Shown here: piece after piece, positions 10,105 to 61,879 of the stretch | Numbering within the stretch: the first letter of the stretch is position 1 | Layout of the letters: each line of letters begins with the position of its first letter | Origin: Asaccharospora irregularis DSM 2635 | GTDB taxonomy: Bacteria; Bacillota; Clostridia; Peptostreptococcales; Peptostreptococcaceae | Direction: 5' to 3' | Length of the DNA stretch: 64,000 nucleotides | Assembly (NCBI RefSeq): GCF_900129815.1 | Contig: NZ_FQWX01000001.1 | Span: 124,001 to 188,000, forward strand | The notes under the pieces: model-generated | Database searches by the model: none | Told to the model about the DNA's origin: nothing | What the model saw: the letters and a program-made list of their open reading frames with translations, nothing else | Translations under genes and position numbers: made by a program

Positions 10105-10950
10105 TTAATTTGGCAAGATAATTTTTACCCTATCACCAAATATAGACTTAATTGTTTCTATTATTTCTTTAGAGCAATTGTCATTTAGTAAATTAACTAT
10201 TTCTATTTTTTTGGGACATAGGGTTAGTAGCGTGCTTATTAAAAAATCTTCATAATTTAAATTTTCTTTTATAACCATATTTATGATATCTTCATCGTCT
10301 ATATTTTCTATTTTATTGCCATCTTTATCATACAAAATAAACGAATTATCATCTAATATATGCACTCTTAACAACTCTATTTTTTCTTGTTGTATATCGA
10401 CAAAATATTTTAATACTTTTATAAATTCCTCATGGTCTTTTTCCATCAAGTACTCTTCCAGAGCTATGTCACCTATAGTTGATATATACCCCATAAACTC
10501 TTTCATTCTAAACTTGACAAATCCATCTACATTTATATAATTGTTGTTCAATATGTAATTGTATACTCTATTCACTATAGTATCTCTTATAAAAACTTCC
10601 TTTTGCTCAAATATTTTTAAGGAGTAAATATAGATGTTATCTTTATCGTCTTTATATGCATTTCCATACTGCTTTAAAATATATTCTTTTAATAGTTTGT
10701 CCTTCATTATATTTATTATTAAATCTGTTATATCCTTTGATATTTCATCTATACTTAGTAATTTAGCTCCATCTTCATCTTTATTGATTACCTTGGTCCC
10801 TAAGCACTCATTTTGATCTGCATTTATCATTACTTCTATCATATCATCATTACATACCAATTTTTTGTTGAATTTATTATTATTTAAAAACTTCATTGCA
10901 GGAATTTTGTACTGCGGTAATAAACCTACACAAATATCTTTTTTCGTCAA
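10105..10950 (-). CDS. ytxC: YtxC-like sporulation-associated protein
   Basis: A 281-residue soluble protein resembling B. subtilis YtxC, which also sits beside thrS in Bacillus. The C-terminal half shows the family pattern: a VNRVYNYILNNNYINVDGFVKFRMKEF block, the LMEKDHEEFIKVLKYFVDIQQ helix, and a final strand-helix module with LLTLCPKKIEIVN. The family is called sporulation-related mainly from its taxonomic spread; the biochemical role is unknown. It begins 2 bases after the upstream DUF6873 gene ends, so the two are cotranscribed. Confidence 0.75.
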   Translation of the reverse strand: MTKKDICVGLLPQYKIPAMKFLNNNKFNKKLVCNDDMIEVMINADQNECLGTKVINKDEDGAKLLSIDEISKDITDLIINIMKDKLLKEYILKQYGNAYKDDKDNIYIYSLKIFEQKEVFIRDTIVNRVYNYILNNNYINVDGFVKFRMKEFMGYISTIGDIALEEYLMEKDHEEFIKVLKYFVDIQQEKIELLRVHILDDNSFILYDKDGNKIENIDDEDIINMVIKENLNYEDFLISTLLTLCPKKIEIVNLLNDNCSKEIIETIKSIFGDRVKIILPN

Positions 10951-20026: not shown

Positions 20027-20665
20027 CTATTTTTTACTTTCTTTTCCTTCTTGGTAATAATTACAATCATTTTTTATAGGACATTGATCACACTCTGGTT
20101 TTCTAGCTTTACACATTCTTCTTCCATGAAAAATCAAAAGATGATGAGAATGTGACCATCTCTCCTTAGGTATAACTTCCATAAGGGCAAACTCAGTTTT
20201 TTCAGGCGTCTTAGTGTCAACTATACCGATTCTATTTGAAACTCTAAATACATGAGTATCTACAGCTATAAATGGCTGTTTATAGGCATTGCTAAGAACT
20301 ACACCTGCAGTCTTCCTACCTACCCCTGGAAGCTCTATAAGTTCTTCTAGTTTATCTGGAACTTCACCATTATAAAGAGTGCTCAATTTTTCTGATGTTT
20401 CTCTTATTTTTTTTGCCTTGCTTCTATAAAGTCCACAAGTTTTTATTTCCTCTCCAATTTCTTCTTCTGTTAACCTTGCAAATTGATGAGCTGTATTATA
20501 TTTTTTAAACAACTCTGCTGTTACCTTATTTACCCTAACATCAGTACATTGTGCTGACAATATTGTAGCTATTAAAAGTTCGAATGGAGTTGTATAGTTT
20601 AACTCACATTTTGCATCTGGGTAAAGTTTTTCTAAACTATCAAGTATTTCATTTATTTTTTTCAT
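20027..20665 (-). CDS. nth: Endonuclease III
   Basis: A 212-residue base-excision glycosylase/AP lyase that removes oxidised pyrimidines. The helix-hairpin-helix ELPGVGRKTAGVVL carries the catalytic Lys, the catalytic Asp lies in AVDTHVFRVSNRIG, and four cysteines near the C-terminus (CKARKPECDQCPIKNDC) bind a 4Fe-4S cluster. Length and motifs are standard. It lies between the Lon-family gene and trmL, with its own spacing of about 200 bases to trmL. Confidence 0.96.
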   Translation of the reverse strand: MKKINEILDSLEKLYPDAKCELNYTTPFELLIATILSAQCTDVRVNKVTAELFKKYNTAHQFARLTEEEIGEEIKTCGLYRSKAKKIRETSEKLSTLYNGEVPDKLEELIELPGVGRKTAGVVLSNAYKQPFIAVDTHVFRVSNRIGIVDTKTPEKTEFALMEVIPKERWSHSHHLLIFHGRRMCKARKPECDQCPIKNDCNYYQEGKESKK

Positions 20666-20695
20666 TAGAATCTCCTCAAATTTTATTTTTTACAT

Positions 20696-20757
20696 AAAAA
20701 GCTACCTCAAATTTTCCTTTAAGATGCTGATTAATTTCTGACTTTGAGATAGCTTTT
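20696..20757 (-). terminator. Terminator after the Lon-family protease gene
   Basis: The inverted repeat AAAAGCTATCTCAAA...TTTGAGGTAGCTTTTT (one G-T pair) is followed by a T run on the minus strand, just past the stop at 20776. Confidence 0.75.
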
Positions 20758-33198: not shown

Positions 33199-33927
33199 CT
33201 ACATTTTTTTAGTTTTTCTAAGTTTAAACCTTTTTCTCTTAAAAAATCTTACTTTTGAAATATTTGTATAGTACTCTAACTTATCTAAGTTATTTTTCCA
33301 TAAAAATACTATATAAATTACAAATAATATAATAGCCCATCTATATTCTATTATCAATATAAAATCGAAAATGCCATGAAGTAAAATAGGTAATATTATT
33401 GACATTATAAAGTACTCTCTTTTTTTTATTTTATCATCTGAAAACTTGTATTTTGATATATAATATCCCATAGTAATTGCAAACATTATATGACCAGGTA
33501 TAGATATTATCGCCCTACTTAGACCTAATTCAAATACAAAGTCTCTACTCTCAGACATTATATATATTAAATTTTCTATACTTGCAAATCCAAGAGATAA
33601 AAATATAGAGTATATAACTCCATCTAACTTTTCATTGAAGTGTTTTTCTTTGAATAGTATAGGTATCAAAATCAAAGCCTTCAAACCTTCCTCTGTAAGA
33701 CCAGCAACTATAAATGCTATATATATATAGTTGTACCATCCATCTAAAATATTTATTTTAACTAAAAATCTTTCTATAATTATTGCAAATACACTTAAAA
33801 TTGCACCTAAAACAAAGTACTTAACCAGTATTACTATCGGTTCCTTTTCATATTTATCTTTTAGATATATCCAAAATACAAATGCCACCACTGGAGCTAA
33901 CGCTAATACTAATAAATCTATCGCCAT
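33199..33927 (-). CDS. prsW: PrsW family intramembrane metalloprotease
   Basis: A 242-residue, roughly seven-helix membrane protein of the CAAX/PrsW glutamic-type protease group. Key motifs are LTEEGLKALI (EExxK), GFASIENLIYI, PGHIMFAITMGYY and ILLHGIFDF, carrying the conserved Glu and His residues. PrsW cuts anti-sigma factors (RsiW in Bacillus, RsiT in C. difficile). No obvious anti-sigma substrate is adjacent. The neighbouring sleC gene on the other strand resembles the C. difficile arrangement as I recall it. Confidence 0.87.
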   Translation of the reverse strand: MAIDLLVLALAPVVAFVFWIYLKDKYEKEPIVILVKYFVLGAILSVFAIIIERFLVKINILDGWYNYIYIAFIVAGLTEEGLKALILIPILFKEKHFNEKLDGVIYSIFLSLGFASIENLIYIMSESRDFVFELGLSRAIISIPGHIMFAITMGYYISKYKFSDDKIKKREYFIMSIILPILLHGIFDFILIIEYRWAIILFVIYIVFLWKNNLDKLEYYTNISKVRFFKRKRFKLRKTKKM

Positions 33928-33982
33928 AAAATAAAATTCCTCTCTTTTATATTTTCAATATATATTATTTCCATTTTTCTTA

Positions 33983-34034
33983 ACAAAATAATAGTTATAT
34001 TCATACAATAGAATAGTTATATTCATACAATAGA
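33983..34034 (+). promoter_or_regulatory. Duplicated sigma-K-like promoter elements upstream of sleC
   Basis: Two perfect tandem copies of a 22-base unit (33991-34012, 34013-34034) each contain CATACAATA, which fits the mother-cell sigma-K -10 (CATANNNTA), at 34002-34010 and 34024-34032. Exactly 17 bases before each lies an AC (33983-33984 and 34005-34006), the sigma-K -35 core. The duplication therefore makes a second complete element. sleC starts 44 bases after the second one. Sigma assignment is inference from consensus. Confidence 0.6.
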
Positions 34035-34076
34035 ATATACTAGCATTTTAAAGTTATTTATAGAAAGGGTGATTTT

Positions 34077-35348
34077 ATGCAAGATGGTTTTTTAACGGTT
34101 AGCGTAATTGACTCTGCTACCAACAGACCTATAAAAGATGCCACTGTAAACGTGTATTCTGTTCCGGAGAATGGAGAAAGTTCTTCTGCTTTATATCAAA
34201 ATTTAAAGAGTAATGAGTCCGGTCAAGTCGTAGATTTAAAACTTCCAGCTCCGGATATATCATATTCTCAGGAGCCTTCTGATGTCAGACCGTATAGTCA
34301 GTATATTGTAGAGGCTATTATAGACGGATATGAGACGGTCGTTGTAGAAGGTACTCAGCTTTTCCCAACTATAGAAGCTAGACAAAATATGCCCCTACCA
34401 CCCAAGACGAGAAGCAGAATGTCATACTCTAGACAAAATGAGGTTGTTTTTAGAATTGAGGAAAATACATTATACGGAACATATCCTCCAAAGATACCCG
34501 AAAGCAGTTTGAAACCACTGCCTCCTCCTACAGGATTTGTAGTTCTTGATAATGCTGTGGTACCTGAGTTTATAGTTGTACATGACGGTCTTCCAGAAGA
34601 TACTTCTGCAAAAAACTACTGGATTCCTTTTAAGGATTATATTAAAAATGTAGCTTCTTCTGAAATATATTCAACTTGGCCCCAACAAACTATTTACTCA
34701 AATATAGTAGCTATTATCTCATTTACTCTAAACAGAGTTTTTACTGAATGGTACAGAAATAAAGGGTACAATTTTACAATAACTTCATCAACTGCTTATG
34801 ATCATAAATTTATATATAATAGAAATATATTCAACACTATATCTGTAGCGGTAGATGATATTTTTAATACGTATATAAAAAGACCTCCTACAGCTAGACA
34901 GCCACTTCTAGCACAGTACTGCGATGGCATAAAATCACAGTGTCCTGGTCAAATGACTCAGTGGGGTAGCAAAGATTTAGGAGATGAAGGATATGATTTC
35001 AAAGCTATACTAAGACACTTCTATGGAAATGAAATCGTTTTTGAAAAAGCACCTATTGTAAGCGGTGTACCTGTTTCATACCCTGGGTATCCACTACAGG
35101 CTAGTTTATATAATAAATATGTTAAGACTATACAAAATCAACTTAATGCTATATCAAATTCATACCCTGCTATACCTAAAGTTAAAGAAGATGGTATATA
35201 TGGTGAGAATACTTCTGCAGCTGTAAAAACATTCCAGCAAATATTTGGATTACCTCAAAGTGGCATAGTTGATTTTAAAACTTGGTATGAGATATCTAGG
35301 GTGTATGTGGCAACTACAAAAATTGCTTCTTTAAACCCTGTTATATAA
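34077..35348 (+). CDS. sleC: Spore cortex-lytic enzyme SleC (pre-pro form)
   Basis: A 423-residue precursor of the clostridial germination enzyme that degrades spore cortex after Csp proteases activate it. The N-terminal pre/pro region (about 1-150) begins MQDGFLTVSVIDSATN and contains the DVRPYSQYIVEA segment. The SpoIID-like lytic domain carries the putative catalytic Glu196 in NVASSEIYSTWP, then LNRVFTEWYRNKGYNFTITS, YCDGIKSQCPGQMTQWGSK and LRHFYGN. A C-terminal peptidoglycan-binding repeat (about 345-410) contains VKEDGIYGENTSAAVKTFQ. No signal peptide, as expected for a mother-cell product packed into the spore. RBS GAAAGGGTGAT. Confidence 0.95.
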   Translation: MQDGFLTVSVIDSATNRPIKDATVNVYSVPENGESSSALYQNLKSNESGQVVDLKLPAPDISYSQEPSDVRPYSQYIVEAIIDGYETVVVEGTQLFPTIEARQNMPLPPKTRSRMSYSRQNEVVFRIEENTLYGTYPPKIPESSLKPLPPPTGFVVLDNAVVPEFIVVHDGLPEDTSAKNYWIPFKDYIKNVASSEIYSTWPQQTIYSNIVAIISFTLNRVFTEWYRNKGYNFTITSSTAYDHKFIYNRNIFNTISVAVDDIFNTYIKRPPTARQPLLAQYCDGIKSQCPGQMTQWGSKDLGDEGYDFKAILRHFYGNEIVFEKAPIVSGVPVSYPGYPLQASLYNKYVKTIQNQLNAISNSYPAIPKVKEDGIYGENTSAAVKTFQQIFGLPQSGIVDFKTWYEISRVYVATTKIASLNPVI

Positions 35349-35484: not shown

Positions 35485-36855
35485 TTATTTAAATATATCT
35501 AAATACTTTTCCTTTAGTATATGATCTATAACGTCCACTTTTATTGGAAACTCGGGTATACCTGCTGCATACGGTGCTATATCATACAAATCAAAATAGA
35601 TAACAAGGCTATCATCTCGTACATAATACTTTTGACCTTTCTTTACTCCAGAAAATTGATATATACCTTCATTTTCTTTGTTTTCCTTAACTAATTCTTC
35701 TATCTGTTTTCTTATCTCTTTATCTATGACTATTTTATAATCTGAACCATCCTTAAAAAAATCATCTAAATTTAGAAACTTTCCATCTCTCATGTCTATG
35801 TTGTAAGATATATCCTCATACATTCCATGAGCTCCACCACTATATTGATAATATCTAACCTTTATACTCAACATATTATTGCTATTTTTCTCAACATCAA
35901 AGTTTATGTTTACTACGAATTTATTTTTATTTTCTTTATTATCTCCTAAATATTTTTTAGCCTCTTCCTGGGCATTGTTATAAAAGCTCATAATATCATT
36001 TCTAATCTTATCATTTATTGATTTTTCAATGGTCTTATTTGATGTGGTTATTATAGGTATATTTATCACACTGTTTATATACTCATTATTTTCTGTTATT
36101 GTTTGTGTGTCTATATTCGCTTCTATAGAATCTGTATCCGCCACACTTATTTTATTTTTAAATATAGAGTGCGGTATTTTAAATTCATATGCTATATTTT
36201 TCCCACTTTCTTTGTATGGATTAAAATAAACACTTATCCCTCCATCTATTATCGAATAATTTGTGTATTTATCTATGTTAATTCTGGACATATCTAGTCC
36301 TTCTTTATTATCTTTTTTGGTTTTAATTATATGATTCTTAATTACCTCTTTATAGTCTTCATTATTTTTTAAAAAATTATCTAAAAATATTCTTTGTCCT
36401 GTCTTGAGGTCAAAAATGTAACTATCTTTTTCAAACTTAGTATTGTTTTTACTGGATTTTGTATCTCTAGTTATAACTATGTTCAGTAAGTTGCTATCCT
36501 CAAATGCAACATAGTAATTTATATCTATAACTGACTTGTCCTTTTTCTCTAAAGTATCTTTAATCTGTCTTTGATTGTTTATAAATTGATTTATATTCTT
36601 TCTTATATATGAATTCATATATCTCTCTATTTCTTTATTGTAATAGTGAATCTGAGGCATTTTTATATTTATAGATATGTTTTTATCATTTATATTATAC
36701 TTCTCCTCAGTTATCTTTATAACCCTTAAACCTCCAGATATGTTTGTTTGTAATGAGCTTCGCACTTTTAAAATATCAGTCTTTGTAACCACTAATGCCA
36801 GCGATCCCAATAAAATCCCCAGCATTAGTATATTTGAAAATAATCTTTTTTTCAT
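35485..36855 (-). CDS. Secreted/anchored protein with two RsiV-like (DUF4163/DUF3298) units
   Basis: A 456-residue protein with one N-terminal membrane segment or signal anchor (about residues 8-25) and an extracytoplasmic region made of two similar units of about 200 residues. Each pairs a DUF4163-like part with a DUF3298-like part: YIFDLKTGQRIFLDNFLKNNEDY / ISVYFNPYKESGKNIAYEFKIP in unit 1, and YNIDMRDGKFLNLDDFFKDGSDY / LVIYFDLYDIAPYAAGIPEFPI in unit 2. It lacks the sigma-binding N-terminus of RsiV, and no sigma gene is adjacent. Unit 2 keeps the GGAHG motif. Function unknown; lysozyme or peptidoglycan binding is a guess from RsiV and PdaC. Confidence 0.75.
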   Translation of the reverse strand: MKKRLFSNILMLGILLGSLALVVTKTDILKVRSSLQTNISGGLRVIKITEEKYNINDKNISINIKMPQIHYYNKEIERYMNSYIRKNINQFINNQRQIKDTLEKKDKSVIDINYYVAFEDSNLLNIVITRDTKSSKNNTKFEKDSYIFDLKTGQRIFLDNFLKNNEDYKEVIKNHIIKTKKDNKEGLDMSRINIDKYTNYSIIDGGISVYFNPYKESGKNIAYEFKIPHSIFKNKISVADTDSIEANIDTQTITENNEYINSVINIPIITTSNKTIEKSINDKIRNDIMSFYNNAQEEAKKYLGDNKENKNKFVVNINFDVEKNSNNMLSIKVRYYQYSGGAHGMYEDISYNIDMRDGKFLNLDDFFKDGSDYKIVIDKEIRKQIEELVKENKENEGIYQFSGVKKGQKYYVRDDSLVIYFDLYDIAPYAAGIPEFPIKVDVIDHILKEKYLDIFK

Positions 36856-60469: not shown

Positions 60470-60597
60470 GCCATATCTCCTCCTGATTTTTTAAACTTAA
60501 TATATTTATAAGCTATTTATAACGATACCCAATTATTGAGATTAGTCGCACTTTTTCATAAATTAAAATAATCCCATGTAAAAATACTTGTTTAACT

Positions 60598-60633
60598 AAA
60601 AATATCCTTATAAATAAAAATATCCTTATAAAT
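60598..60633. repeat. Tandem duplication of an 18-base unit at the end of the uvsE gene
   Basis: Two exact copies of AAAAATATCCTTATAAAT (60598-60615, 60616-60633), with a partial third. The uvsE stop codon falls in the second copy, so the duplication touches the coding end. Confidence 0.7.
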
Positions 60634-61879
60634 AAAAATAATAAGAATTCAATAGATAATACTCCTCGTATTTCAAAGCCATCTTACATAAAAAATCCTT
60701 TATAGGCTTTTTTGAGTTACGCCCATCTTCATATCCTTTTATATATTTTGTAAATTTATTTTTTTCAACTTCTGTAGCATTAGATTTAAAATAACCCCAA
60801 ACATGAAGTAAAGCATTTATTGTACTGCCTATAGTCTCCTCTTTTTTTAAAGCTTCATCTATTAAATTATAAAATTCTAATACAGGGTATTCATCTTTGT
60901 TTTTAAGCAGTTCACGAATTCTATTATAGTGCGCATTGGAGTGTTCTAATATAGTATATTTGTATTTGCTCCATTCCATTTCTAAATTGCTTACTTTTTT
61001 ATCCTCTCTTATGTAGTTGATGCATTTTAGCGTAGAAAGGTTCTTGTCCTTTACCTCTAGCATTATATCTACATCTAGATCTATCTCTTCAATAAATTCT
61101 GTAAATTTTTTTATGTCTATAGTAGATGAGTGAGCTCCTTTTCTCTTGTTCACATCTTGTTGTGAATAATGAATCTTTTGAACTCCATCCTCTTTATTCC
61201 ATGTTTCACTACATAAACTTATCCAATACTTATCATCCTTTGATAAATCATAAGGTAAAACTCTATTGTGTAAATTATCATATACAACAGGTATATTTAA
61301 AGTCTGACCAATTTTTAAAACTTCTCCTATATTAAAGGATTTATCATCATTTTCAATTACAATTCTTTGCTTAACTTTGTTATCTAGTAGTTGGAAGTTA
61401 TCAATAAAACCCTCCACAGCCTTACCCTTATTATTGTAAACTCCTCCTATGTGAAGTATTATTTTATTATCTATACCTGCACCAAGGCTATCCAGTACTC
61501 TATTATGGTAATTTAAATCCTCTATTGCTCTTTTCACTACATCCTCATTTGGTGAATTCAGTACTGTATATTGTCCTGGATGCATTGAAACCCTCATACC
61601 CGAGTTTTTAATTTTTTCTCCTATTGAACATAGTTTAGAGGAAAATACATCCCACCAAGGTATGTCATTTGCAGGACTTGACCCGAACGGTATTAAGTCT
61701 GATGTTATTCTAAAAAGTTTTATATTATTTTTTATATTATACTTTATTATGTTTTCTAGTGAATCTAAATTGTGTTCTATAATCTTTAAAAGATTATCTC
61801 TGTTTGCATTCTTTAAAGTGCAACGTTTAAAATTTGTATTTGGTACTCCTTCAGTTAAACATGCATATCCTATTTTCAT
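60626..61879 (-). CDS. uvsE: UV damage endonuclease UvsE
   Basis: A 417-residue TIM-barrel endonuclease that nicks 5' of UV photoproducts. Landmarks are MKIGYACLTEGVPNTNFKRC, RITSDLIPFGSS, RVSMHPGQYTVLNSPNEDVV, IILHIGGVYNNK, VIENDDKSFN, VYDNLHNRV and MLEVKDKN, the metal-binding strands. I start at the ATG at 61879 behind CAGGGAGA; an in-frame reading 65 codons longer has no family similarity. The C-terminal 120 residues form a helical extension common in clostridial members. Confidence 0.92.
   Translation of the reverse strand: MKIGYACLTEGVPNTNFKRCTLKNANRDNLLKIIEHNLDSLENIIKYNIKNNIKLFRITSDLIPFGSSPANDIPWWDVFSSKLCSIGEKIKNSGMRVSMHPGQYTVLNSPNEDVVKRAIEDLNYHNRVLDSLGAGIDNKIILHIGGVYNNKGKAVEGFIDNFQLLDNKVKQRIVIENDDKSFNIGEVLKIGQTLNIPVVYDNLHNRVLPYDLSKDDKYWISLCSETWNKEDGVQKIHYSQQDVNKRKGAHSSTIDIKKFTEFIEEIDLDVDIMLEVKDKNLSTLKCINYIREDKKVSNLEMEWSKYKYTILEHSNAHYNRIRELLKNKDEYPVLEFYNLIDEALKKEETIGSTINALLHVWGYFKSNATEVEKNKFTKYIKGYEDGRNSKKPIKDFLCKMALKYEEYYLLNSYYFYL

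Follow-up and report, generated by a model that had tools for sequence, protein, structure and literature searches.

Does the duplication of a promoter element in front of a gene for spore germination give the cell more of the enzyme, or does it leave expression almost as it was? This question is raised by the DNA upstream of sleC in Asaccharospora irregularis DSM 2635, a relative of C. difficile; sleC is needed for the waking of spores. All positions below refer to the window, that is, the whole stretch of 64,000 nucleotides that was analysed. sleC lies at 34077-35348 on the plus strand and encodes the pre-pro-form of a spore cortex-lytic enzyme of 423 amino acids. The original prediction had named the gene sleC, and this identity was confirmed by a structure match of residues 1-423 to the solved spore cortex-lytic enzyme pre-pro-form 9h68 (E 1.7e-231). 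Pfam detected only the peptidoglycan-binding domain in the 423-residue product, and NCBIfam gave no match over its curated cut-off. The protein shares 65-81% identity with the 37 orthologues analysed here, and the closest is that of Romboutsia lituseburensis (80.6%). A divergent prsW-like gene occupies 33199-33927 on the minus strand (168.7 bits, below the curated cut-off of 225). Downstream of sleC, the minus strand carries a gene at 35485-36855, one part of which is RsiV-like (100.7 bits, below the curated cut-off of 250). The genome assembly is 98.94% complete (2.62 Mb in 76 contigs) and contains one sigK over the family cut-off (312.9 bits versus 298.65), which is an open frame of 222 amino acids with no internal stops. 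sigK, yabG, spoIVA and spoIIID are present in this genome, in which dpaA (TIGR02853) gave no match at E 0.001.

The intergenic gap between prsW and sleC is 149 nt and holds two identical units of 22 nt, AATAGTTATATTCATACAATAG, arranged head-to-tail. Direct reading and a repeat scan placed them at 33990-34011 and 34012-34033 on the plus strand. The second unit is followed by AATA, so that the exact match at offset 22 extends over 26 nt. Tandem Repeats Finder described 33983-34037 as 2.5 copies of period 22 with 93% matches; the copies share 91% identity when they are counted from 33983. CATACAATA was read directly at 34002-34010 and 34024-34032, and in both copies a spacer of 17 nt separates it from an upstream AC, at 33983-33984 and 34005-34006, respectively. 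Two exact tandem copies of 22 bases, each CATACAATA having an AC exactly 17 bases before it, had been proposed earlier, and both points hold. Of the two ACs, the first precedes the exact repeat, whereas the other forms part of the upstream CATACAATA. With AC at offset 3 in CATAC and the -35 AC 19 bases upstream of the -10 (3+19 = 22), a 22-bp step supplies the downstream AC automatically. At periods of 10-60, the window contains four exact tandem duplications, and in two of them, the one before sleC and one at 60597, the run is at least 18, whereas six dinucleotide shuffles gave 0, 0, 1, 0, 0 and 0, the lone one being a run of 11. The duplication before sleC is therefore real and beyond chance, although the 64 kb contain a second one of that size class. 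The latter lies at 60593-60640 and consists of an 18-nt unit with a 26-nt exact run at offset 18. A microhomology origin of the 22-bp step, in which the -35 region resembles the -10 region, found no support beyond AT-richness; in a test of 15 orthologue representatives at offsets 18-27, offset 22 had a mean of 5.33 matches of 11, fewer than offsets 18, 20 and 25.

The promoter itself is shared by relatives. We took upstream DNA for 69 loci (L002-L070) and kept 37 distinct orthologue upstreams, leaving out two that were too short, 16 duplicates, the window itself and 13 with less than 65% SleC identity, which are paralogues or distant. AC-17-CAT was found at -32 to -54 in 25 of the 37, and TTAACAAA stands at -35 in all 25. 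Two more upstreams (L057 and L063) carry the AC-CAT element with a spacing of 16, bringing the total to 27/37. The remaining ten have no such element at this place and comprise four Intestinibacter-like loci, three of Metaclostridioides, a second R. maritimum copy and two MAGs. In the Intestinibacter-like loci (L021, L023, L025 and L026), prsW adjoins sleC, yet no AC-(16-18)-CAT occurs at the usual distance. In Metaclostridioides (L015, L016 and L027), TTAACAAA and TTAACAAAATA are kept upstream of sleC and a TTTATTTTT-like sequence replaces the CATA -10; the start of sleC in this genus may differ from that in its relatives. The firmer gain of the comparison is this conserved family sleC promoter, with a long -35 block (TTAACAAA, 25/25 at spacing 17).

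Assignment of the sleC promoter to sigma-K is well supported. Both copies fit the minimal sigma-K rule (AC, 16-17 nt, CATANNNTA), with a spacing of 17. Loss of sigE or of sigK lowers the sleC transcript of C. difficile by a factor of more than 100 according to the available part of PMC3738446, and the gene is entered with a sigma-K promoter in the portion of PMC3789822 at hand. The sigma-K-like character claimed in the original prediction is thus borne out by the elements in 27/37 orthologues and by sigma-K dependence in C. difficile, as far as these two sources extend. The loose motif AC-N17-CATANNATA is at background in the genome (27+24 matches versus 35+22 in the reversed control), so the weight of the promoter comes from its conservation across species. 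In the window, the same motif has four matches versus 1.46 expected, and at least four occurred in 5/100 shuffles. TTAACAAA-N14-CATANNATA, allowing one mismatch, has six matches versus four in the reversed control, and the sole exact one is that of sleC. A sigma-A promoter for sleC (TTAACA-18-TACAAT, 10/12) was rejected because sigma-A-like matches on both strands are at shuffle level (two found versus 2.3 expected) and because sleC of C. difficile depends on sigE and sigK in the text seen of PMC3738446.

Other sporulation promoters, drawn from 13 to 15 family genomes, gave mixed support for an AACAAA -35. In yabG upstreams (L116-L131), AC lies 16 nt before a CATA -10 in 14/16 and AACAAA is at -35 in 13/16; one of them (L117) has ACAAT at -35, as in the proximal sleC copy. 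This pattern suggests a -35 element longer than AC. In sigK upstreams, AC at 16 before CATATAAT was found in 3/13 only, and the 14 spoIVA upstreams examined had no comparable boxes. Excerpts of PMC10681294 report that a yabG reporter of C. difficile is on in a sigK mutant and describe control by sigma-E and sigma-K without ATA.

Although both copies fit the minimal rule, they are not equivalent. The distal -35 AC (33983-33984) is inside the conserved block TTAACAAAAT (33980-33989), at the place where all 25 spacing-17 elements have TTAACAAA, whereas the proximal -35 AC (34005-34006) is inside the distal -10 by direct reading; the distal copy reads AACAAA at -35 and the proximal copy ACAAT. Near-identical regions were grouped into 15 representatives, at least 80% of which agree in each of 32 columns. 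Of these conserved columns, 31/32 are matched by the distal copy and 20/32 by the proximal copy. This difference is clear in the -35 flank (14/14 versus 8/14), whereas the spacer and -10 columns are matched 11/11 in both. The extended profile score is 41.5 for the distal copy and 15.4 for the proximal copy; the representatives score 20.8-46.6, and the highest score of an unrelated site in the window is 14.9. The core profile score is 33.8 and 24.8, respectively, and 11.9 for the highest unrelated site. These scores indicate that the family promoter is preserved intact in the distal copy, whereas the proximal copy combines a good core with a -35 flank that has been replaced. Thus, the earlier claim that both copies are complete sigma-K-like elements stands insofar as each has AC-17-CATANNNTA, but it does not stand as an equivalence, because only the distal copy keeps the TTAACAAA -35.

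Distance from the gene gives the opposite picture. The distal -10 (34002-34010) starts at -75 from the ATG, which is outside the family range, whereas the proximal -10 (34024-34032) starts at -53, within the orthologue range of -32 to -54. In 26 orthologue loci in which PrsW aligned from residue 1, the gap between prsW and sleC is 95-125 nt in 19, 179 and 186 nt in two, and 232-286 nt in five C. difficile-type loci. Removal of one unit from the gap here leaves 149-22 = 127 nt, near the commonest length. The 149-nt gap compared with 127, together with a proximal -10 in the family range and a distal one outside it, leads us to infer that 22 bp were inserted between the conserved -35 and sleC.

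The reading that we prefer, with a probability of about two in three, is a species-specific duplication in the family sigma-K promoter, in which the distal copy would be dominant, the proximal copy weak or silent, and the net output near that of the ancestor. An ancestral one-copy sigma-K promoter of sleC would have undergone a single 22-bp tandem duplication between the -35 and the start codon. Sigma-K polymerase would then start mainly at the distal copy, and the mRNA leader would gain about 22 nt. The proximal copy, with the AC of the distal -10 (CAT-AC-AATA) as its -35, would be weaker or silent. Judging from its size, polymerase should not sit on both promoters simultaneously when they are 22 bp apart; joint occupancy would thus be impossible and the two copies would compete. 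Natural tandem promoters with start sites less than about 35 bp apart show weaker expression on average, as stated, citing other work, in the part of PMC11339919 available to us. That work concerns E. coli; the predicted starts here also fall within about 35 bp of each other, so mutual occlusion is expected, with the difference that the -35 of one promoter is inside the -10 of the other. Given this overlap and the average from that partial source, more SleC is not the default expectation, and the proposal that the duplication raises the SleC level is not what would be expected of promoters 22 bp apart. Net sleC expression would probably be close to that of the one-copy ancestor. Nor would germination speed have to follow the transcript level, because CspB is required for the maturation of pro-SleC at germination according to extracts of PMC3789822. 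The duplication is most likely near-neutral.

Known systems resemble this arrangement in part. sleC of C. difficile (CD0551) likewise has prsW adjoining, TTAACAAA at -35 and a 17-nt spacer, but it has a single element with the CAT of its -10, CATATCTTG, at -51 in a gap of 232-286 nt, whereas here the spacer and -10 are duplicated. sigK of C. difficile also has two mother-cell promoters before one sporulation gene; as given in the accessible text of PMC3789822, P1 is sigma-E-like and P2 sigma-K-like, and their start sites precede the start codon by 67 and 26 nt, whereas here a single element occurs twice at an interval of 22 nt.

Neutral slippage, by which the leader was merely lengthened and the proximal copy is silent, is compatible with the preferred reading and has a probability of about one in three. 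It fits with the presence in the window of a further exact tandem duplication of that size class (60597) and with the rarity of the arrangement, since the exact overlapping double pattern, searched in its exact form and spacing, occurs in 1/71 family genomes, the Asaccharospora one only; completeness is 90% or more and contamination 5% or less in 60 of these genomes, and the genus is represented by one genome. It also fits with the folding of the two assumed leaders, which hardly surpasses that of shuffled sequences (z -1.28 and -0.70, with 20/200 and 45/200 shuffles as good or better), and a leader RNA structure for sleC is accordingly unsupported. Against it, the perfect 26-nt match could reflect constraint as well as recent origin, and one genome cannot separate the two.

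That both copies are active sigma-K promoters, jointly raising SleC in the spore, is rather unlikely. In its favour, both copies fit AC-17-CATANNNTA, the proximal copy stands as far from the ATG as is usual and has a core score above that of every unrelated site in the window, and paralogues resembling sleC in L031 and L037 are arranged similarly, with GTACAATT followed by CATACAATA at a spacing of 17. On the other hand, the proximal copy is without 6/14 conserved -35 flank columns, and a step of 22 bp brings the second AC with it automatically. The overlap of the promoters and the weaker average of closely spaced pairs, in the seen part of PMC11339919, also argue against joint activity. If both copies do fire, the locus would be a simple case of a slippage-made overlapping promoter, its -35 lying in the -10 of its neighbour, before a cortex-opening enzyme; otherwise, the duplication is a minor local variant of a known promoter in one genome.

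We consider it similarly improbable that the TTAACAAAAT block is kept for the prsW promoter or for a regulator such as SpoIIID, in which case the contrast between the copies would say little about sleC. In each of the 27 upstreams that carry the element, prsW lies next to sleC, and the element is missing from the two orthologue loci that have no prsW match (L017 and L028); part of the conservation of TTAACAAAAT may therefore serve the divergent gene. A possible prsW promoter box, TTGTTA, lies at 33986-33981 on the minus strand, overlapping the TTAACAA block, in a sigma-A-like TTGTTA-18-TATATT; such matches are, as noted above, at shuffle level. The SpoIIID box of C. difficile, KRTAACARK in the available text of PMC5025042, shares TAACA with the block, but by eye the block has 6/9 of the SpoIIID consensus positions, and the occurrence of AACAAA at the -35 of yabG also speaks against this reading.

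It is unlikely, though slightly less so than the sigma-E reading below, that the two copies form a self-templating promoter pair, with a unit copy number that varies between strains and tunes the amount, timing or leader length of SleC. Its basis is that, in a CATAC -10 with AC at offset 3, any 22-bp duplication turns the upstream -10 into a downstream -35. If this were true, the copy number of the 22-bp unit would be a variable dial on spore germination. Viral contigs did not contain the exact 22-mer, and no report of a duplicated sleC or sigma-K promoter was found among the best title matches in open-licence literature.

Least probable of all is that the proximal copy widens sigma specificity, CATAC giving ATA, a sigma-E -35, together with AC, and sleC being turned on earlier through sigma-E. 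ATA is present at 34003-34005, 18 nt before the proximal -10 and at no other spacing of 15-18, whereas none stands 15-18 nt before the distal -10, and CATACAAT fits the B. subtilis sigma-E -10. Expression of yabG in the sigK mutant despite the lack of ATA suggests that AC-type promoters may be read by sigma-E (PMC10681294, in part), but the fall of the C. difficile sleC transcript in the sigK mutant (PMC3738446, in part) argues against an earlier start of sleC through sigma-E. So does the spacing in spoIIID upstreams, which have ATA at 16, not 18, in 12/13, the 13th being truncated and a weak 14th match (L171) having been left out; spoIIID has a sigma-E type promoter in C. difficile in the portion of PMC5025042 consulted.

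Imperfect tandem duplications are also present elsewhere in the window, at 20652-20715 (period 30 nt, 85% matches) and 10246-10332 (44 nt, 77%).
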